A stretch of 64,000 bases of DNA, taken from the NCBI RefSeq assembly GCF_002902905.1, contig NZ_CP026124.1, forward strand, positions 3,782,001 through 3,846,000. The letters are read 5' to 3'. Source of the stretch: Achromobacter sp. AONIH1 (GTDB taxonomy: Bacteria > Pseudomonadota > Gammaproteobacteria > Burkholderiales > Burkholderiaceae_B). Shown here in pieces: positions 2,767-16,797 of the stretch (the first letter of the stretch is position 1; each line of letters opens with the position of its first letter). Made by a program: the position numbers and the translations under genes. The notes under the pieces are model-generated. The model made no database searches, was not told the origin of the DNA, and worked only from the letters and a program-made list of their open reading frames with translations.

Positions 2767-4234
2767 GTTCGCTGCCGTATAGGCAGCTTAGAAACAGACG
2801 GATCCACGAATGTGCGCCTGGCGATGGTTCGCTGCCGTATAGGCAGCTTAGAAATTTTGCACTACTTGTGGACGCAAGCGGGTCTGGTTCGCTGCCGTAT
2901 AGGCAGCTTAGAAAAGCGATCCAAGAATTCATCTCATGCTTGTAGCGTTCGCTGCCGTATAGGCAGCTTAGAAACTGCTTCGTTGGCGGGATCCAGCCGA
3001 CGATGTGTTCGCTGCCGTATAGGCAGCTTAGAAAATCAACACCCGGAACGGCCCCGCATCCAGGCAGTTCGCTGCCGTATAGGCAGCTTAGAAATCCATC
3101 TCAGGGAAGTAGCCGACGTGGCGGATGTTCGCTGCCGTATAGGCAGCTTAGAAATCAGGATCGGCCTTGTCATCAACAGGAATGACGTTCGCTGCCGTAT
3201 AGGCAGCTTAGAAAAGCAGCTTGAGGGCGCGGGTGATACCGCCCAGGTTCGCTGCCGTATAGGCAGCTTAGAAAATGGCAGGGATGGCGCGCTTGCCTGC
3301 TTCCCAGTTCGCTGCCGTATAGGCAGCTTAGAAAATCGAAGCAAGCGCCTTCCCGGCGCAGGTCAGGTTCGCTGCCGTATAGGCAGCTTAGAAATTCAAG
3401 GAATACATCGCCAGCCGTGCTGAGGCGTTCGCTGCCGTATAGGCAGCTTAGAAATGCGAAAGATCGACGTGCTGCGCCAGGCCGTGGTTCGCTGCCGTAT
3501 AGGCAGCTTAGAAAAGTCCGGCCGATGCGATCGAAACCCAACCAGCGTTCGCTGCCGTATAGGCAGCTTAGAAAAGCTCGCGGCCGGAGACGTTGCCGGC
3601 TTGCTCGTTCGCTGCCGTATAGGCAGCTTAGAAAAACACCATGGCCGGCCACTACGGCTACATCCGGTTCGCTGCCGTATAGGCAGCTTAGAAAGGCCGC
3701 AATCAGATTTTTCTGTCCGCGTCGAAGTTCGCTGCCGATAGGCAGCTTAGAAAGAGACGCCGCCGGACCAGGAAGAGATCTTCGAAGTTCGCTGCCGTAT
3801 AGGCAGCTTAGAAAAGCTGAGCAAGACGAAGGTCCGAGGCGACGACGTTCGCTGCCGTATAGGCAGCTTAGAAATTGCTTGTCCATGTCCACCACCAACA
3901 CCCGCAGTTCGCTGCCGTATAGGCAGCTTAGAAAAAATCGGACGCGGAATGGCTCGGCGAAGTCGTGTTCGCTGCCGTATAGGCAGCTTAGAAATCCCCG
4001 GGTACGACTCGTTTATCCACCGGCCGGTTCGCTACCGTATAGGCAGCTTAGAAACAGTCCGTGCCGACTTGGGAGCCGCGGGCACCGTTCGCTGCCGTAT
4101 AGGCAGCTTAGAAATGATCCGTACCGGCCACCTAATCGAAGGGCAAGTTCGCTGCCGCACAGGCAGCTTAGAAATTGTAGGTGTTGATCCAGAACGTGCT
4201 CGCCTTGTTCGCTGCCGCATAGGCAGTCAAGACT
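2767..4234 (+). CRISPR. Type I-F CRISPR array, 25 repeats and 24 spacers, no adjacent cas genes
   Basis: A 28-base repeat recurs every 60 bases from 2767. It begins GTTCG, has a 5-bp stem CTGCC/GGCAG around a GTATA loop, and ends CTTAGAAA, the organisation recognised by Cas6f (Csy4) in type I-F. Spacers are 32 bases, except spacer 17, which is 33 bases (3754-3786) after a 27-base repeat lacking one loop T (3727-3753). Repeats 1-16 are identical. Changes accumulate rightward: a stem mismatch in the repeat at 4027, altered loops at 4147 and 4207, and loss of the 3' handle in the last repeat. The leader is therefore on the left and transcription rightward. All spacers differ. No cas1, cas2-3 or csy genes occur in these 64 kb, so it is an orphan array or is served in trans. 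Confidence 0.97.
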
Positions 4235-9999: not shown

Positions 10000-11613
10000 T
10001 CAGCCTTCCCGGCCGGAAACGCTTTCCCAGTTCAAGCCGAACTTCAGCAGGTACTTGCGCAGCCGGTCGGCGTCATTGACCACCGTGCGCTGGGTGCGCG
10101 AGCGGTCATAGAGCTTGCGGCCCGCCTCGGACAGCGAGTCCGATTCCCGGCACACGCCGATGACGGCTTCCAGCTGCATGCGGTCGAACAGGTCCAGCGC
10201 GTCGGCCGCGCCGTCGGGCAGCACGGCGTCCAGGCGGATCTTGCCGCCGTCGTTGCCCGTGGGCGCGCCGCGCTGCCACAGCCAGTGCAGGCGCTGGATC
10301 TCGGCGTCGACCAGCTCAACCGGAATGCGTCCGCCGTCGGCCAGCGTCGCCAGCCGTGTCACGCTGGCCGACAGGTCGCGGAAGTTGCCGGTCCATTTGG
10401 CCTCGGCCGACTTGGCGAATTTCAGATAGCGCGTCCGCGCCTCGGCATTGAAGCGGACCACGGCGCCGGTTTCCTCGGCGGATCGCATCAGCAGGTGATC
10501 GACGTTGGGCTCGATGTCCTCGGGTCGCTGCGCCAGGCCGGGCAGGGCATAGGACCAGAGGTTGATGCGCGCATACAGGTCTTCGCGAAAGCGCCCCTGC
10601 GCCACGTCCACGCGCAGGTCGCGGTGGGTGCCGGCGATCAGCTGGAAATCGCTGCTGGTCTCGCGGTCGCTGCCCATGGGCAGGAAGCGTTTTTCTTCAA
10701 CGGCCTTGAGCAGCATGGCCTGTTCGTCCAGGCCCAGTTCGCCGATCTCGTCCAGGAACAGCACGCCCTGGTGGGCGGTGCGCAGCAGGCCGGCCCGGTC
10801 GGCGGCCGCGCCGGTGAAGGCGCCTTTCTTGTGGCCGAACAGCGTCGAGGCGGCGCCGTCGCCGCGCAGCGTGGCGCAATTGACCTCGACGAACTCGCCC
10901 TGGACCTGATGGCGGGATTTCTTCAGTTCGTACATGCGCCGAGCCAGATGCGACTTGCCCGCGCCGGTGGGGCCGGTCAGCAGGATGGGCGCCTGCGAGC
11001 GCACCGCCACTCGTTCGATCTCTTCGATCAGCCTGTTGAAGGCCCTGTTGCGCGTGGGAATGCCACTCTTGAGGAATTCCAGCGCGTCGTCCCGCGCCTG
11101 GCTGAAGCGGCGGGCCAGCACGTCGTAGCGCGACAGGTCCAGGTCGATCAGCGTGTACTTGCCGGGATTCTCGCCCGCCTGCTTCCTGGGAGGGGAGGTC
11201 TGCAACAGCACGCCGGGAATGGTGCGCGATTCCACCATCAGGAACATGCAGATCTGCGCGACGTGGGTGCCGGTGGTGATGTGCGCCCAATACTGCTCGC
11301 GCTCGGGATCGAAGCGGTAGCCGCGCGTCCAGTCGTACAGCGCTGCGTACATCTCGCCGAAGTCCCAGGGATCGGCGAAGTCCATCGGGATCAGATTCAC
11401 GACGGTGTCGGGCGACAGATTGGCGATGTCCTGCTCCACCAGCCGCGCCAGGGCCTGGTGGCGCGTTGGATAGAACAGCTCCAGCCGGTCGATCAGCGTG
11501 TCCTCGTGCTGGACCAGCGATACCGTGGGCCGCCATTTCGACCAGCGGCCCGCGCCCTGGCCGGCATCCAGCTGGGTGCCCAGGAAGCCGATGACGACGT
11601 TCTTCTTTTGCAT
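10000..11613 (-). CDS. rtcR: RtcR, sigma-54-dependent activator of the RNA-repair operon
   Basis: A 537-residue bacterial enhancer-binding protein. The N-terminal ~185 residues (start QKKNVVIGFLGTQLD) match the RtcR regulatory domain, a CARF fold thought to sense RNA ends or fragments carrying 2',3'-cyclic phosphate. The AAA+ domain has Walker A GPTGAGKS near residue 212, the sigma-54 contact loop GAFTGA near residue 262, and Walker B LFLDEIGE. A C-terminal region provides DNA binding. The ATG at 11613 was preferred to an upstream TTG. It is divergent from the Ro60-like gene, whose promoter is a sigma-54 site with an adjacent IHF site, so RtcR is expected to switch on the whole rsr-Y RNA-rtcB-rlaP-rtcA series when RNA is damaged. 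Confidence 0.96.
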   Translation of the reverse strand: MQKKNVVIGFLGTQLDAGQGAGRWSKWRPTVSLVQHEDTLIDRLELFYPTRHQALARLVEQDIANLSPDTVVNLIPMDFADPWDFGEMYAALYDWTRGYRFDPEREQYWAHITTGTHVAQICMFLMVESRTIPGVLLQTSPPRKQAGENPGKYTLIDLDLSRYDVLARRFSQARDDALEFLKSGIPTRNRAFNRLIEEIERVAVRSQAPILLTGPTGAGKSHLARRMYELKKSRHQVQGEFVEVNCATLRGDGAASTLFGHKKGAFTGAAADRAGLLRTAHQGVLFLDEIGELGLDEQAMLLKAVEEKRFLPMGSDRETSSDFQLIAGTHRDLRVDVAQGRFREDLYARINLWSYALPGLAQRPEDIEPNVDHLLMRSAEETGAVVRFNAEARTRYLKFAKSAEAKWTGNFRDLSASVTRLATLADGGRIPVELVDAEIQRLHWLWQRGAPTGNDGGKIRLDAVLPDGAADALDLFDRMQLEAVIGVCRESDSLSEAGRKLYDRSRTQRTVVNDADRLRKYLLKFGLNWESVSGREG

Positions 11614-11724
11614 GGGTCGGGATAGCTGATTAGATAAATGGCTAGCTAATATTCTATACAAATCAGAAGTGAAGCATCAGCCTGGATTCTGTTTATCGCT
11701 GCGAAAAATATTTAATCTATGGAA

Positions 11725-11766: not shown

Positions 11767-11782
11767 TGGCACGCCCTTTGCA
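11767..11782 (+). promoter_or_regulatory. Sigma-54 (-24/-12) promoter of the RNA-repair operon
   Basis: TGGCACGCCCTTTGCA matches the sigma-54 consensus TGGCAC-N5-TTGC with the obligatory 10-base GG-to-GC spacing. It is 49 bases before the Ro60-like start codon. A 10-base palindrome CCAGCGCTGG (11748-11757) sits immediately upstream. Confidence 0.92.
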
Positions 11783-11830
11783 TAAGGAAAGGCATAGACG
11801 ACAAATCGTATGCAAGAAGGAGAATGCTCC

Positions 11831-13393
11831 ATGGTCAACACGCAACTCTTCCAGTCCCAGCGCGGCGCGATGCTGCCGGCGGCCCTGGATACCAATAACG
11901 AACTGGCGCCGGCCTATGCGTTCAGCCCGCGCCACCAGCTGGCCCAGCTCGCCGCCACCGGCTGCCTGCGTCAGACGTTCTACGCCCAGGCGCAAGATCA
12001 ACTGGATCGCGTGATGACGCTGGCGGCCGAGGTGGATCCGGCCTTCGTGGCCAGGACGGCGGTCTATGCCCGCGAGTCCGGCCATATGAAGGACATGCCG
12101 GCCTTGCTGGCCGCGATCCTGGCGGTGCGCGACCTGGAGCTGCTGGCGCAGGTGTTTCCGCGCGTGATCGACAGCGGCAAGATGCTGCGCAACTTCGTGC
12201 AGATCCTGCGCAGCGGCGCCGTGGGGCGCAAGTCGCTGGGCACGCGGCCCAAGAAGCTGGTGCAGCGCTGGCTGCTGGAGGCCACCGAAAAGCAGCTGCT
12301 GAACGCGGCCGTGGGCAATGCGCCTTCGCTGGCGGACGTGGTCAAGATGGTGCATCCCAAGCCCGCCGAGGCCTGGCGCGCGGCCTGGTTCGCCTGGCTG
12401 ATCGGCAAGCCCCATGACGAGGCCGCGCTGCCGCCCGCGACGCAGGCGCTCGAACGCTTCAAGCGCGATGCCACGGGCGAGCCGCCGGATGTGCCGTTCC
12501 AGATGCTGACTGCGCTCGGCATGACGCCGGCGCAGTGGGCGCAGGTTGCACGGGCCGGATCCTGGCAGATGGTGCGCCAGAACCTGAACACCTTCGCGCG
12601 CCACGGCGTGTTCGAGCAGCCGGGCATGGCCAAGGCCATCGCCGCCAAGCTGCGCGATCCGCAGGCCGTGGCCCGGGCGCGGGTGCTGCCTTACCAGCTG
12701 ATGTCGGCCTTCAAGGCGGCGGGCGAGGCGGTGCCGGCGGTGGTGCAGGACGCGCTGCAGGACGCGATGGAACTGGCGATCGGCAACGTGCCCAGCCTGC
12801 ACGGGCGGGTGGTCGTGTGTCCCGACGTGTCGGGGTCCATGCGTTCCTCGGTCACGGGCTGGGCCGGTTCGGCGACGTCGACCGTGCGCTGCGTCGACGT
12901 GGCCGCCCTGGTGGCCGCCGCCGTGCTACGCAAGAATCGCCGGGCGCGTGTGCTGCCGTTCGACTTCGACGTGGTCGACCTGCGCATGAATCCGCGTGAT
13001 TCGGTCATGACCAACGCGCAGAAGCTGGCCGGCATCGGCGGCGGCGGCACCAGCTGCAGCGCGCCGCTGGCTCGCCTGAACCGCGAGCGGGCGCAGGTGG
13101 ACCTGGTGATCCTGGTCTCGGACAACGAGTCCTGGATGGATGCGCGGCGCAGTGGCGCCACCGCGACCATGCGTGAATGGGAGACGCTCAAGCAGCGCAA
13201 CCCGGGCGCGCGGCTGGTGTGCATCGACATCCAGCCGCATGCGACCACGCAGGCTGCGGAACGCGCGGACATCCTGAACGTGGGCGGTTTTTCCGACGCC
13301 GTGTTCGAGATGATCGCCAACTTCGCCGAGGGGCGCATGGGCGCCGGCCACTGGGTCGGCGAGATTGAAGCGGTGACGCTGGGCGTGCAATAG
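11831..13393 (+). CDS. rsr: Ro60-like TROVE/vWA RNA-binding protein
   Basis: A 520-residue homologue of the Ro60 autoantigen, the ring-shaped protein that binds Y RNAs and misfolded RNAs. The TROVE helical repeats span about residues 20-310 (e.g. YARESGHMKDMPALL and MTALGMTPAQW). The von Willebrand A domain begins near residue 325 with the MIDAS motif DVSGSMRSS (Asp ~332) and includes GGGGTSCSAPL. The ATG at 11831 follows GAAGGAG. In bacteria Rsr works with a Y RNA and PNPase in RNA decay and quality control. Here it is the first gene behind the sigma-54 promoter, and a Y-RNA-like element lies 40 bases after its stop, followed by rtcB. Confidence 0.95.
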   Translation: MVNTQLFQSQRGAMLPAALDTNNELAPAYAFSPRHQLAQLAATGCLRQTFYAQAQDQLDRVMTLAAEVDPAFVARTAVYARESGHMKDMPALLAAILAVRDLELLAQVFPRVIDSGKMLRNFVQILRSGAVGRKSLGTRPKKLVQRWLLEATEKQLLNAAVGNAPSLADVVKMVHPKPAEAWRAAWFAWLIGKPHDEAALPPATQALERFKRDATGEPPDVPFQMLTALGMTPAQWAQVARAGSWQMVRQNLNTFARHGVFEQPGMAKAIAAKLRDPQAVARARVLPYQLMSAFKAAGEAVPAVVQDALQDAMELAIGNVPSLHGRVVVCPDVSGSMRSSVTGWAGSATSTVRCVDVAALVAAAVLRKNRRARVLPFDFDVVDLRMNPRDSVMTNAQKLAGIGGGGTSCSAPLARLNRERAQVDLVILVSDNESWMDARRSGATATMREWETLKQRNPGARLVCIDIQPHATTQAAERADILNVGGFSDAVFEMIANFAEGRMGAGHWVGEIEAVTLGVQ

Positions 13394-13433
13394 CGCGCCC
13401 GGCGGATCCCAAGGAACAAGCAGTATCGATTAC

Positions 13434-13535
13434 GCGCGAATGCCGGCAGGACTACATCGGTGCGCCGCGGGGTTCGAATCCCCAGCCGGGAAACCGGCGC
13501 TGGCTACGTCCTGCCACTCTGGTCGCGCATTTTTT
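13434..13535 (+). ncRNA. Y-RNA-like noncoding RNA with a tRNA-like module (YrlA type)
   Basis: The intergenic sequence between rsr and rtcB folds as bacterial Y RNAs do. An outer 6-bp stem GCGCGA/TCGCGC (13434-13439 with 13523-13528) and an inner 8-bp stem GGCAGGAC/GTCCTGCC (13445-13452 with 13508-13515) flank an internal loop, giving the long Ro-binding-type helix. The apical part contains a canonical tRNA T arm, GGGG-TTCGAAT-CCCC (13469-13483). Next comes a GCCGG hairpin closed by a GAAA tetraloop (13485-13498), resembling a capped acceptor stem; an alternative GCGCCG/CGGCGC pairing (13462-13467 with 13495-13500) competes with it. Six T residues follow the outer stem (13530-13535), so the RNA probably ends there by intrinsic termination. 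Position matches the rsr-yrlA-rtcBA order known in Salmonella. Boundaries are inferred. Confidence 0.82.
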
Positions 13536-13653
13536 CCAGCCGGGCCGGTCCTGGGCTTTCCCGGGCCAGGCGCGGCATGCAAGGCATCATCCTCATCCAG
13601 ACGGTTTTCCCTGGAAAGCCGGTAAATTGTTCAGCAGCAAAAAGAAGATCAAC

Positions 13654-14877
13654 ATGACGAACCAGAACTACAACATCGAAGAAGTCGCCGGCGGCGTGCC
13701 GGTGAAAATGTGGACCAAGGGCGTGCCCGTCGAAGACGACGCCAAGCGCCAGCTGGCCAATGCCGCCCGCCTGCCCATCGTGTTCAAGCACATCGCGGCC
13801 ATGCCGGACGTGCACCTGGGCATCGGCGCGACCGTCGGCTCGGTGATCCCGACCCTCAAGGCCATCATTCCGGCGGCGGTGGGCGTGGACATCGGCTGCG
13901 GCATGATGGCGGCCAAGACCACGCTGCGCGCCGAGGATCTGCCCGACAACCTGGGTCCGCTGCGCTCGGCCATCGAGCAGGCCGTGCCGCACGGCTCGGC
14001 GCCGCGCGGCCGTCGCGACACGGGCAGCTGGGAGAACCCGCCCGTGTCCGTGGACCAGGTCTGGGCCACGCTGGCCGACGAGTTCGACGCGCTGTGCGAG
14101 CTGCATCCGCGCCTGCGCAACACCAACAACCGCAAGCACCTGGGCACGCTGGGCACGGGCAACCACTTCATCGAGGTCTGCCTGGATGAGGCGGGTTTCG
14201 TCTGGTTCATACTGCACTCGGGCTCGCGCGGCGTGGGCAACGCCATCGGCACGCACTTCATCGAGCTGGCCAAGAAGGACGCGCAGCGCCACCAGAGCAA
14301 CCTGCCGGACGAGAATCTGGCCTATTTCGAGGAAGGCGCCCAGTATTTCGGCCATTATGTGCGCGCGGTGTCGTGGGCGCAGAAGTTCGCGCTGCGCAAC
14401 CGCGAGGTGATGATGGCCAACCTGATCGCGACCGTGCGCAAGGTCATCGCCAAGCCCTTCGAGTCGCACGTGGAGGCGGTGAACTGCCACCACAACTACG
14501 TGCAGCGCGAGCGCCACTTCGGCGAGGACGTGTTCGTGACCCGCAAGGGCGCGGTCAGCGCCAAGCGCGGCGAGCTGGGCATCATCCCGGGCAGCATGGG
14601 CGCGCGCAGCTACATCGTGCGCGGCCTGGGCAACCCGGAAAGCTTCGAAAGCTGCAGCCACGGCGCCGGCCGCGTCATGAGCCGCACCAAGGCCAAGAAG
14701 CTGTTTTCGGTGGAAGACCAGGTGCGCGCGACGGAAGGCGTGGAATGCCGCAAGGACGCCAACGTCATCGACGAGATCCCGATGGCCTACAAGGACATCG
14801 ACGCCGTCATGGCGGCGCAGCGCGATCTGGTGGAAGTGGTGCACACCCTGAAACAGGTGGTGTGCGTGAAAGGTTGA
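13654..14877 (+). CDS. rtcB: RNA-splicing ligase RtcB
   Basis: RtcB joins RNA 2',3'-cyclic phosphate or 3'-phosphate ends to 5'-OH ends using GTP and Mn2+. The protein has 407 residues, the usual length of this RtcB form. Motifs visible: VGVDIGCGM with the metal-binding Cys (~82), LGTGNHFIEV, HSGSRGVGN, NCHHNYV, and SHGAGRVMSR, whose His (~336) is the guanylylated nucleophile. The ATG at 13654 gives a family-typical start (MTNQNYNIEEV); an upstream in-frame ATG at 13627 adds only a short Lys-rich leader. A small hairpin (13603-13620) lies in the upstream segment after the Y RNA. It is the central enzyme of the repair operon. Confidence 0.97.
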   Translation: MTNQNYNIEEVAGGVPVKMWTKGVPVEDDAKRQLANAARLPIVFKHIAAMPDVHLGIGATVGSVIPTLKAIIPAAVGVDIGCGMMAAKTTLRAEDLPDNLGPLRSAIEQAVPHGSAPRGRRDTGSWENPPVSVDQVWATLADEFDALCELHPRLRNTNNRKHLGTLGTGNHFIEVCLDEAGFVWFILHSGSRGVGNAIGTHFIELAKKDAQRHQSNLPDENLAYFEEGAQYFGHYVRAVSWAQKFALRNREVMMANLIATVRKVIAKPFESHVEAVNCHHNYVQRERHFGEDVFVTRKGAVSAKRGELGIIPGSMGARSYIVRGLGNPESFESCSHGAGRVMSRTKAKKLFSVEDQVRATEGVECRKDANVIDEIPMAYKDIDAVMAAQRDLVEVVHTLKQVVCVKG

Positions 14878-14916: not shown

Positions 14917-15735
14917 ATGAAGCAGGAAAGCGTCCTGAGCGCGCATCCGGTGTCGGACGACATGCGGGCGCTCATCGCCGAGAAACTCGCGGACATCGAG
15001 CGCCAGCACCAGGTGACGGTGCTGTACGCCTGCGAGTCGGGCAGCCGGGGCTGGGGCTTCGCCTCGCCCGACAGCGATTACGACGTGCGTTTCGTCTACG
15101 TGCACCGGCTGCCCTGGTATCTGACCGTGCTGCCCGGGCGCGACGTCATCGAGCAGCCGATCAGCGGCGATCTGGACATCAACGGCTGGGACCTGCGCAA
15201 GACGCTGGGCCTGCTGCGCGATTCCAATCCCACGCTGCTGGAATGGCTGCGCTCGCCCATCGTCTATCGGGCGGTCGAACCCTGGGCGCCGCGCCTGCGC
15301 GCGCTGGCCGAGGAGGAGTTCTCGCTGGTGCGCGGCTATCACCATTACGTGTCCATGGCCCGCAAGAACCTGCGCGAGCACCTGCTGGGCGAGGTCGTGC
15401 GCTACAAGAAATACCTGTACGTGCTGCGGCCGCTGCTGGCGGCGCGCTGGATCCGGGAAGGGCGCGGCGCGCCGCCCATGCGCTTCGCCGAGCTGGCGAG
15501 CGAGATGGTGACCGACCCGGCGCTGCTGGAAGAGCTCAACGCCTTGCTGGCGGTGAAGATGCGGGCGGGCGAGGCCGCCACCAGCCCGCGCTGGCCGGGC
15601 CTGCACGACTTCATCCTGCGCGAGCTGGAGTCGGCGCAGGCGCATGTCCCCGTCGCCGGCGACCGGCCGGACCTGGCGCGGCTGGATCGCTACCTGCGCG
15701 AGGCGGTGCTGCATTTCGATGCCGCGCCCGCTTGA
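14917..15735 (+). CDS. RlaP-type (DNA polymerase beta-like) nucleotidyltransferase of the RNA-repair operon
   Basis: A 272-residue predicted nucleotidyltransferase. The catalytic signature GSRGWGFASPDSDYDVRF is near residues 42-59: a Gly-Ser pair followed by the DxD metal-binding Asp residues (D54, D56). This fits the RlaP family (RNA-ligase-associated polymerase beta-like), which was noted by its repeated co-occurrence with RtcB and other RNA ligases. A proposed role is to add nucleotides or otherwise modify RNA ends before or after ligation; to my knowledge no biochemical reaction is settled. It lies between rtcB (39 bases upstream, with AAGGAG before the ATG) and rtcA (24 bases downstream), so it is surely co-transcribed. 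Confidence 0.85.
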   Translation: MKQESVLSAHPVSDDMRALIAEKLADIERQHQVTVLYACESGSRGWGFASPDSDYDVRFVYVHRLPWYLTVLPGRDVIEQPISGDLDINGWDLRKTLGLLRDSNPTLLEWLRSPIVYRAVEPWAPRLRALAEEEFSLVRGYHHYVSMARKNLREHLLGEVVRYKKYLYVLRPLLAARWIREGRGAPPMRFAELASEMVTDPALLEELNALLAVKMRAGEAATSPRWPGLHDFILRELESAQAHVPVAGDRPDLARLDRYLREAVLHFDAAPA

Positions 15736-15759
15736 AATAATGATTTGAAGGATACAAAA

Positions 15760-16797
15760 GTGATCGAGATCGATGGGGCCGCCGGGGAGGGCGGCGGCCA
15801 ACTGCTGCGTACTTCGCTGGCGCTGTCCATGTGCACGGGCCAGCCTTTTTCCATGAACCGCATCCGCGCCGGGCGCGCCAAGCCCGGCCTGATGCGCCAG
15901 CACCTGGGCTGCGTCATCGCCGCGGCCGAGATCAGCGGCGCGCAGGTGCAGGGCGCGGAACTGAATTCGCAATCGCTGAGCTTCGCGCCCGGCAAGCCGC
16001 GCGCGGGCGACTACCGTTTCCATCTGGGCACGGCGGGCAGCTGCGGGCTGTTGCTGCAGACGCTGTGGCCGGCGCTGATGATGGCCAACGGGCCCAGCCG
16101 CCTGTCGCTGGGCGGCGGCACGCACAACCCCGCCGCGCCGCCGTTCCATTTCCTGGCGCGCAGCTACGCGCCCCTGCTGGCCCGATTGGGCGCCAAGGCG
16201 GAACTGAACCTGCTCAGGATGGGGTTCTACCCGGCCGGCGGCGGCGAGATCGAGGCGCGGATCTGGCCGGCCGCCGACCAGCTGGAGCCGTTCGACCTGA
16301 TCGCGCGCGGCGCGCCCGGCGCCAGTTATGCCGAATGCCATGCGCCGGCGCTGCCGCGCGCCGTCGCGCGGCGCGAGCTGGAACATCTGGGCGAAGCGCT
16401 GGGCTGGACCGCGGATCAGTTGCGCGTGGCCGCCACGCGCCAGCACGAAGGACCGGGCAACGCGCTGCTGGCGACCTTGGAGCACGAGCAGGTCTGCGAG
16501 GTATTCACGCGCTTCGGCGTCAAGGGCCTGACTGCCGAAACGGTGGCCCAGGAACTGGCGCGGGACGTGCGCGCCTACCTGGACAGCGACGCAGCGCTGG
16601 GACCGTACCTGGCGGACCAGTGGGCGCTGCCGCTGGCCCTGGCCGTATGGCGGCGCGGCCAGCCGGCGCAGTACACCTGCACCGAGCTGACCGCGCATGC
16701 CCGCAGCAACTTCGGCGTCATAGGGCAGTTCCTGCCGGTGAGGTTCAGCGCGGCGCCGCTGGGGGCCGGCTGGCGGGTGAAGGTCGAACCCGCCTAG
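15760..16797 (+). CDS. rtcA: RNA 3'-terminal phosphate cyclase RtcA
   Basis: RtcA uses ATP to convert RNA 3'-phosphate ends to 2',3'-cyclic phosphates, making substrates for RtcB. The protein is 345 residues. It opens with IEIDGAAGEGGGQLLRTSLALS and contains AGSCGLLLQT, the GGGTHNPAAPP loop and FYPAGGGEIE. The AMP-accepting His is probably the one in ELTAHARSN (~313), matching the position in E. coli RtcA. The GTG at 15760 follows GAAGGA at good spacing; a TTG at 15745 is the only longer alternative. It is the last gene of the repair operon and convergent with the metal ATPase. Confidence 0.95.
   Translation: MIEIDGAAGEGGGQLLRTSLALSMCTGQPFSMNRIRAGRAKPGLMRQHLGCVIAAAEISGAQVQGAELNSQSLSFAPGKPRAGDYRFHLGTAGSCGLLLQTLWPALMMANGPSRLSLGGGTHNPAAPPFHFLARSYAPLLARLGAKAELNLLRMGFYPAGGGEIEARIWPAADQLEPFDLIARGAPGASYAECHAPALPRAVARRELEHLGEALGWTADQLRVAATRQHEGPGNALLATLEHEQVCEVFTRFGVKGLTAETVAQELARDVRAYLDSDAALGPYLADQWALPLALAVWRRGQPAQYTCTELTAHARSNFGVIGQFLPVRFSAAPLGAGWRVKVEPA

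Follow-up and report, generated by a model that had tools for sequence, protein, structure and literature searches.

Work by Chen in 2014 reportedly placed Y RNAs near the ring protein Rsr in more than 250 species, with at least one tRNA-like Y RNA in each. Among the closest described systems is YrlA (Rfam RF02553), in which, according to a review, a stem binds Rsr and a tRNA-like domain binds PNPase, and which is modified by TruB and DusA (PMC8394870). In the Deinococcus complex RYPER, composed of Rsr, Y RNA and PNPase, the RNA is described as a tether and a gate in two reviews (PMC8394870, PMC4726728).

The window, by which we mean the whole stretch of 64,000 nucleotides analysed here, belongs to a genome of one contig (6,648,943 bases) and contains an RNA-repair operon in the order rtcR (minus strand), rsr, a 260-base gap, rtcB, RlaP and rtcA. 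The gap extends from the rsr stop at 13393 to the rtcB ATG at 13654. An earlier sequence-only reading had proposed that it holds a Y RNA gene with a tRNA-like module, whose product would be the partner of Rsr, and this proposal is supported by an end-to-end match to YrlA, by covariation and by co-occurrence with Rsr. A gene for a compact-class bacterial Y RNA is the best explanation of the gap and, in our judgement, very probably the correct one: the structure is conserved and covaries, it belongs to a class found in relatives, it co-occurs with Rsr, and it stands in an rtc operon. That the RNA is a Y RNA is held with high confidence, and the identity of its partner with low confidence. It lies 40 bases 3′ of rsr and 125 bases 5′ of rtcB, among the following features.

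10000..11661, minus strand: rtcR, sigma-54 activator, divergent from rsr (Pfam RtcR, Sigma54_activat)
11767..11782, plus strand: candidate sigma-54 promoter TGGCAC-N5-TTGCA (-24/-12), found by pattern upstream of rsr
11810..13393, plus strand: rsr, Ro60-like ring protein (Pfam vWA_Ro60 and TROVE; ATG at 11810, alternative GTG at 11834)
13434..13528, plus strand: compact ("class C") Y RNA, 95 nt from one end of the outer stem to the other (Rfam RF02553, model R1, covariation)
13654..14877, plus strand: rtcB, RNA ligase (Pfam RtcB, E 1.8e-127)
14917..15735, plus strand: RlaP, RNA repair nucleotidyltransferase (Pfam PF10127)
15745..16797, plus strand: rtcA, RNA 3′-phosphate cyclase (Pfam RTC)

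The Rsr protein matched PDB chain 2nvo (Ro sixty-related protein, from Deinococcus) with an E-value of 4.7e-21, and Ro60 chains were matched as well. The candidate sigma-54 site starts 67 bases 5′ of the GTG start of rsr; the same pattern is present upstream of rsr in 54 of 80 regions (the window and 79 loci), versus a fraction of 0.00025 of base-shuffled regions.

All the elements that had been described in the gap, namely the stems, the T arm, the capped hairpin and the T6 run, are present, and the anatomy of the RNA is as follows.

13434..13439/13523..13528, plus strand: outer stem of the Ro-binding module, GCGCGA/TCGCGC, 6 perfect pairs
13445..13452/13508..13515, plus strand: inner stem, GGCAGGAC/GTCCTGCC, 8 perfect pairs
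13459..13460, plus strand: linker GG, candidate stand-in for G18-G19 of the tRNA D loop
13464..13466/13502..13504, plus strand: junction helix P3, GCC/GGC
13469..13483, plus strand: T arm, GGGG-TTCGAAT-CCCC
13485..13498, plus strand: acceptor-like hairpin with GAAA cap, GCCGG GAAA CCGGC
13530..13535, plus strand: T6 run, possible 3′ end signal, recurring in homologues

The T6 run had been said to follow the outer stem directly; the run is there, but a single A at 13529 intervenes. TTTT occurs within 15 nt 3′ of the RNA in 47 of 55 homologues and within 15 nt 5′ of it in 24. The D arm of YrlA (AGCUCA...GAGC) is absent, with only 9 bases between the capped hairpin and the inner stem, and no D-arm hairpin was seen when the 55 aligned rows were judged by eye.

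The minimum free energy of the fold is -48.9 kcal/mol versus a mean of -39.0 for shuffled sequences (z of -3.0; 0 of 200 shuffles as good), and the opposite strand has a z of -1.8. The covariance-model search with YrlA that had been suggested as a check gave a match over the entire model (positions 1-114 of 114) with 31.2 bits, which is far short of the gathering cut-off of 69, and with E-values of 3.8e-5 in 281 bases and 2.1e-4 in the genome. This match ranks first genome-wide and is the one full-length match that stands out; L002-L006, other YrlA matches in the same genome, lie on tRNAs, and L007 (16.2 bits, no tRNA) is taken as a chance match. No match to YrlB (RF02565) was obtained in 13380-13660, even with E allowed up to 10. 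ARAGORN found no tRNA in the window, no Rfam tRNA match qualified there either, and at gathering cut-offs Rfam reported only 22 CRISPR repeats, which lie in an array of DR4-type repeats at 2767-4174. Standard finders do pass over this RNA, as had been predicted, ARAGORN and Rfam at its cut-offs both being blank at its place.

Homologous gaps were collected from the best 80 of 353 rsr relatives, in 75 of which rtcB lies downstream of rsr. A unit detector run on these 75 rtcB-linked loci returned 298 units including that of the window, with the reservation that the detector and its class labels are rough and that the long gaps contain some evident chance units. Alignment A1 (MAFFT) holds 39 class-C units including the window's and leaves out L050:6322-6424, a false unit, along with two-hairpin units of greater divergence from L067, L068, L070, L071, L074, L076, L077, L079 and L083. 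A covariance model built from homologous units, R1, is not confined to class C and gives lower scores to other Y RNA types. It gave 103.3 bits on the window RNA, itself one of the training rows, and, across 83 sources (the window, 80 loci and two family genomes), 264 matches with E no higher than 0.1, all on the strand of rsr. At least 60 bits were reached in 55 of the 83 sources, 39 of which had trained R1 and 16 had not. The second alignment, A2, holds 55 sources and is model-fitted, and so leans towards the structure; L078 and L084 (about 62 bits with R1) stand outside it.

Compensating changes, for which an alignment of the same gap in relatives had been proposed, were found in all five helices, each of which has at least one pair changed on both sides in either alignment. 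In A1, 95.7% of the cells of the 26 pairs are paired, 13 pairs show changes on both sides versus 4.5 in shuffles, and the covariation score is 0.185 versus 0.110 for shuffles and at most 0.078 for slid versions of the structure. The corresponding values for A2 are 96.6%, 15 pairs and a score of 0.230. None of the 500 shuffles and none of the six slid controls reaches this covariation, the counted structure being derived from the window row and therefore favoured over the slid versions. The outer stem is paired in 100% of cells, with both-side changes in 3 of its 6 pairs, and the inner stem in 99.4-99.5% (A1 and A2). The internal-loop strands between them carry the conserved sequences GAATGC and CTxGTC; GAATGC and GTC are invariant in 39 rows while the stems covary. 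This is what a Ro-binding stem looks like, if it is taken as a 5′/3′ terminal stem with conserved internal-loop sequence, a description drawn in part from a review (PMC8394870).

The T arm is paired in 98.1% of cells in A1 and 93.8% in A2, in which 13 of 53 distinct rows leave the outermost T-stem pair open. The loop reads TTCGAAT in 20 of 39 rows, and most of the remainder are near variants. The class-C unit of G135 has lost the T-loop motif, and the T loop is therefore dispensable for the class. The acceptor-like hairpin is paired in 96.4-96.6% of cells (A1 and A2), and its cap varies (GAAA in 21 of 39 rows, GCAA in 9, TTCG in 2), so that the cap seems to be structural.

The support for P3 comes from A2, the wider, model-fitted alignment, where 85.4% of its cells are paired, each of its 3 pairs shows changes on both sides, and the complete three-pair helix is present, as aligned, in 42 of the 55 rows and incomplete in 13. 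Six combinations occur: GCC/GGC, GAC/GTC, CCC/GGG, GGC/GCC, TCT/AGA and ACC/GGT. In A1 only 68.7% of the P3 cells are paired. A partner-swap test on the 39 rows gave no support for P3, because GCC/GGC is nearly invariant among these rows: 289 of 300 permutations scored at least as high as the real pairing. Shuffling the 3′ strands left the mean almost unchanged (3.52 vs 3.63).

A GG between TACA and P3 is found in 54 of the 55 homologues, versus a shuffled mean of 29.0 and maximum of 37 when the whole linker is considered; an earlier count over eight linker bases only gave 22 of 39 versus a shuffled mean of 5.6. This GG is a candidate for the tertiary role of G18-G19 in tRNA. Linkage between the GG and the T loop, checked by eye, was inconsistent: L019 lacks the GG and has the loop ATCGAAC, L022 has a changed T loop and keeps the GG, and G135 keeps the GG without the T loop.

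The RNA adjoins rsr, as expected of a bacterial Y RNA, and the two go together across genomes as well. At E up to 0.001, R1 matched 3 of 200 genomes in the family sample, the same 3 that have Rsr, and 11 of 300 in the order sample, all 11 of them within the 13 that have Rsr; the two samples overlap, and the stricter filters of the RNA-model searches lose weak matches. No Rsr-less genome in either sample gave an R1 match at this threshold. The two Rsr genomes of the order sample that R1 did not match are G312 and G492. Four genomes of this sample scored above 60 bits and the others 31-57 bits, several of the latter representing other Y RNA types. In G100, a member of the same family with Rsr, the sole detected Y RNA is a short unit without a tRNA-like module (L090:3127-3179).

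Could the element be a cis-acting leader of rtcB, that is, an attenuator or processing element that merely resembles a Y RNA? In favour of this, it lies within the presumed transcript, 125 bases upstream of rtcB, and scans for promoters and terminators between 11500 and 14000 turned up none of the kinds sought. However, the Ro-stem signature recurs in varying number per gap in relatives, and it is also present at two Neisseria loci (L078 and L084) for which tblastn detected no rtcB in the 9-9.5 kb examined. The genus also speaks against a leader. Among 43 genomes searched for RtcB, 6 matched, and the rtc loci of G181, G204 and G216 have rtcR beside rtcB-rtcA, with neither rsr nor RlaP found there. 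R1, run with filters off, gave nothing above 15.2 bits at these three rsr-less loci. In G181, the one of the three searched genome-wide for Rsr, RtcB is present and neither Rsr nor an R1 match was found. We therefore regard a leader as very unlikely. The genus thus shows two forms of the rtc operon, one with rsr, the Y RNA and RlaP (G000, G203) and one of rtcR-rtcB-rtcA (G181, G204, G216).

A functionless remnant of YrlA, left behind after an array of Y RNAs shrank, is a little less probable still. The gaps of relatives often hold several Y RNA types in a row, while one was found in the window's gap, and the single R1 match in the window, with the one full-length YrlA match that stands out in the genome, makes it the sole Y RNA found for its Rsr. 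Moreover, the congener G203, whose operon is the same as that of the window (identity 97% for RtcB and 90% for Rsr over residues 115-519), has a second, short Y RNA downstream (34.2 bits) that is absent from the window. Against decay, the class is intact at 60 bits or more in the 55 sources given above (R1 training rows among them), and the RNA is better conserved between the window and G203, with identity at 86 of 94 aligned bases compared with 112 of 166 in the remainder of the gap.

Sub-threshold YrlA matches were also tried as a genome-wide detector and rejected: 14 of 200 family genomes matched at E up to 0.001, and 13 of these 14 had no Rsr match. All nine sub-threshold loci that were checked in genomes without an Rsr match proved to be two or three tandem tRNAs, and the YrlA score alone is insufficient because such matches can be tandem-tRNA junctions. 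That the window RNA is likewise a tandem-tRNA junction, or a tRNA gene in decay, matched by chance is scarcely credible, given that no tRNA was called in the window, that the helices covary and that R1 is blank in the Rsr-less genomes at E up to 0.001. At L096-L104 the sub-threshold matches run across the boundary between tandem tRNAs, taking in a T arm, acceptor strands and the D arm of the tRNA that follows; this hints at such junctions as a possible route of origin for the permuted tRNA module.

The compact Y RNA of the window is one of several RNA classes in rsr-rtcB gaps, which were assigned by eye with the help of rough labels.

Class A: long, no T arm
Class B: short, no T arm and no capped hairpin; two matched YrlB (RF02565) weakly
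Class C: compact, the class of the window's RNA
Class D: YrlA type, with D arm
Class E: longer

In seven loci scanned with Rfam YrlA, seven D-type units scored 59.7-75.1 bits, seven C-type units 27-38 bits and two E-type units 31-33 bits; RF02565 matched in 2 of the 7 loci with 28-30 bits (cut-off 97). With YrlA the window RNA has in common the place after rsr in an RtcR operon, the Ro-binding stem, the T arm, the acceptor-like arm and the junction helix, and it differs in its 95 nt between stem ends and in the missing D arm, class-D RNAs having a D hairpin where class C has none. The YrlA-type architecture assigned to it by the sequence-only reading stands for the position in the gap, the stems, the T arm and the acceptor-like arm, but not for the D arm, and its class scores low with the YrlA model (27-38 bits). 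The short YrlB-like units share the Ro-binding stem and the gap, and adjoin class C in many arrays, but lack the T arm and capped hairpin that class C has. The likeness to the Deinococcus Y RNA of RYPER lies in the protein family and the predicted tether and gate role. As in permuted tRNA and tmRNA, a T arm is followed by acceptor-like strands in permuted order, whereas the window RNA has no CCA end, D arm or anticodon; tmRNA models gave very weak matches in relatives and none in the gap of the window.

As far as the sequence goes, two descriptions of the compact RNA fit: it may be a YrlA from which the D hairpin is missing, or a tRNA that lacks its anticodon arm and is opened in the D loop, where the GG would correspond to G18-G19 and P3 to the D stem. 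The view of it as a permuted tRNA whose anticodon stem is replaced by the Ro helix suits the neighbouring YrlA-type RNAs better than the window RNA itself. Class C is compact and widespread; the window RNA, which belongs to it, is a Y RNA without a D arm, a known kind of RNA in a form that Rfam does not set apart. At its cut-off Rfam missed class C in all eight units scanned (the window and seven loci), and a genome with Rsr can therefore appear to lack a Y RNA. A Y RNA without a D arm separates the roles of the T arm from those of the D arm; the compact class predicts modification of the TruB type and not of the DusA type, and it probes whether PNPase or another partner requires the full tRNA shape.

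We propose the following mechanism for the compact Y RNA. Damage to tRNA would activate RtcR, giving an rsr-rtcB-RlaP-rtcA transcript driven by RtcR and sigma-54, from which the RNA would probably be cut. Its outer and inner helices, with the GAATGC and CTxGTC strands, would form the Rsr-binding stem, and the RNA would bind the Rsr ring and shield its RNA-binding surface, acting as both a tether and a gate. The short junction helix would carry the T arm and the capped acceptor-like hairpin, imitating a tRNA elbow without the D arm, and this tRNA-like head would be offered to a partner, as it is to PNPase and tRNA-modifying enzymes in known systems. We infer the co-transcription, the binding to Rsr and the presentation of an elbow-like head by analogy with those systems.

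The YrlA-type neighbours carry a further tRNA-like feature. Among 75 YrlA-type units chosen by a regular expression (T loop, then D-arm motif; examples are L010:5965-6095, L011:5918-6051 and L081:5947-6076), 64 have a hairpin of 3 pairs and a 7-nt loop at either of two set offsets past the inner stem, versus 14% of shuffled units. The loop has U at position 2 (U33) in 61 of the 64, a purine at position 6 (R37) in 60 and both in 58; hairpin, U33 and R37 occur together in 1.7% of shuffled units. The two offsets were fixed after rows from a looser search had been seen, and the result depends on this frame: the looser search had found a hairpin with a 7-base loop in 66 of the 75 units, but shuffles yielded one in 48% of cases, and U33 and R37 were seen in 40 and 41 units, respectively. 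The three middle loop positions vary most, giving 33 distinct loops, and the stems vary in step (AGC/GCU in 27 of the 64, AGA/UCU in 27, others in 10), while in a control with swapped stems a mean of 37% and a maximum of 55% still paired. Since the 64 units were preselected as paired, the evidence here consists of the stem variety and the swap control, and the units are related, so that the changes are non-independent events. The hairpin looks like an anticodon arm with changing anticodons. No description of such a mini anticodon arm in YrlA appeared among the literature matches listed, from a search with the primary YrlA papers outside its range.

These mini anticodon arms hint at decoys for anticodon nucleases. 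In Salmonella, YrlA was not cut by an anticodon nuclease, and the study raises the possibility that it inhibits the nuclease by competition (PMC7790460); a decoy would therefore act by inhibition rather than by being cleaved. On a broader but doubtful proposal, which we offer tentatively, the rsr-rtcB gap would be a site where the ring protein collects tRNA mimics: the YrlA-type RNAs would be decoys or sensors for anticodon nucleases, and the window RNA a stripped, elbow-only mimic lacking D arm and anticodon, sufficient as the only Y RNA of its Rsr and serving enzymes that read just the T arm and elbow. The YrlA-type RNAs would then be almost complete permuted tRNAs whose positions 34-36 vary between species, and damage by anticodon nucleases would switch on the same operon. 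With rows of mimics and covarying mini anticodon arms, the question why an RNA-repair operon carries tRNA mimics becomes testable.

Several minor observations concern the arrays themselves. By rough labels, four or five Y RNA types in mostly constant order are found in L010, L011, L014, L016, L024, L030, L081 and others, and G135 has four units, assigned by eye to classes B, C, D and E. Class-E units (L011:6069-6204, L012:3602-3742 and similar ones) resemble, by eye, a tRNA-Leu opened in the D loop, with a long variable arm and capped arms, and ARAGORN called a tRNA-Leu within one such stretch (L013:6079-6171). Dense tRNA arrays of 5 to 17 genes, absent from the window, lie 5′ of rsr on the same strand in 5 of 60 loci scanned (L010:1222-3322, L014:290-1498, L016:506-1496, L020:130-561 and L035:1-1557). 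A still smaller tRNA mimic is found at L080:5603-5678, a Y RNA of 76 nt that has the T arm only, the capped hairpin being missing.
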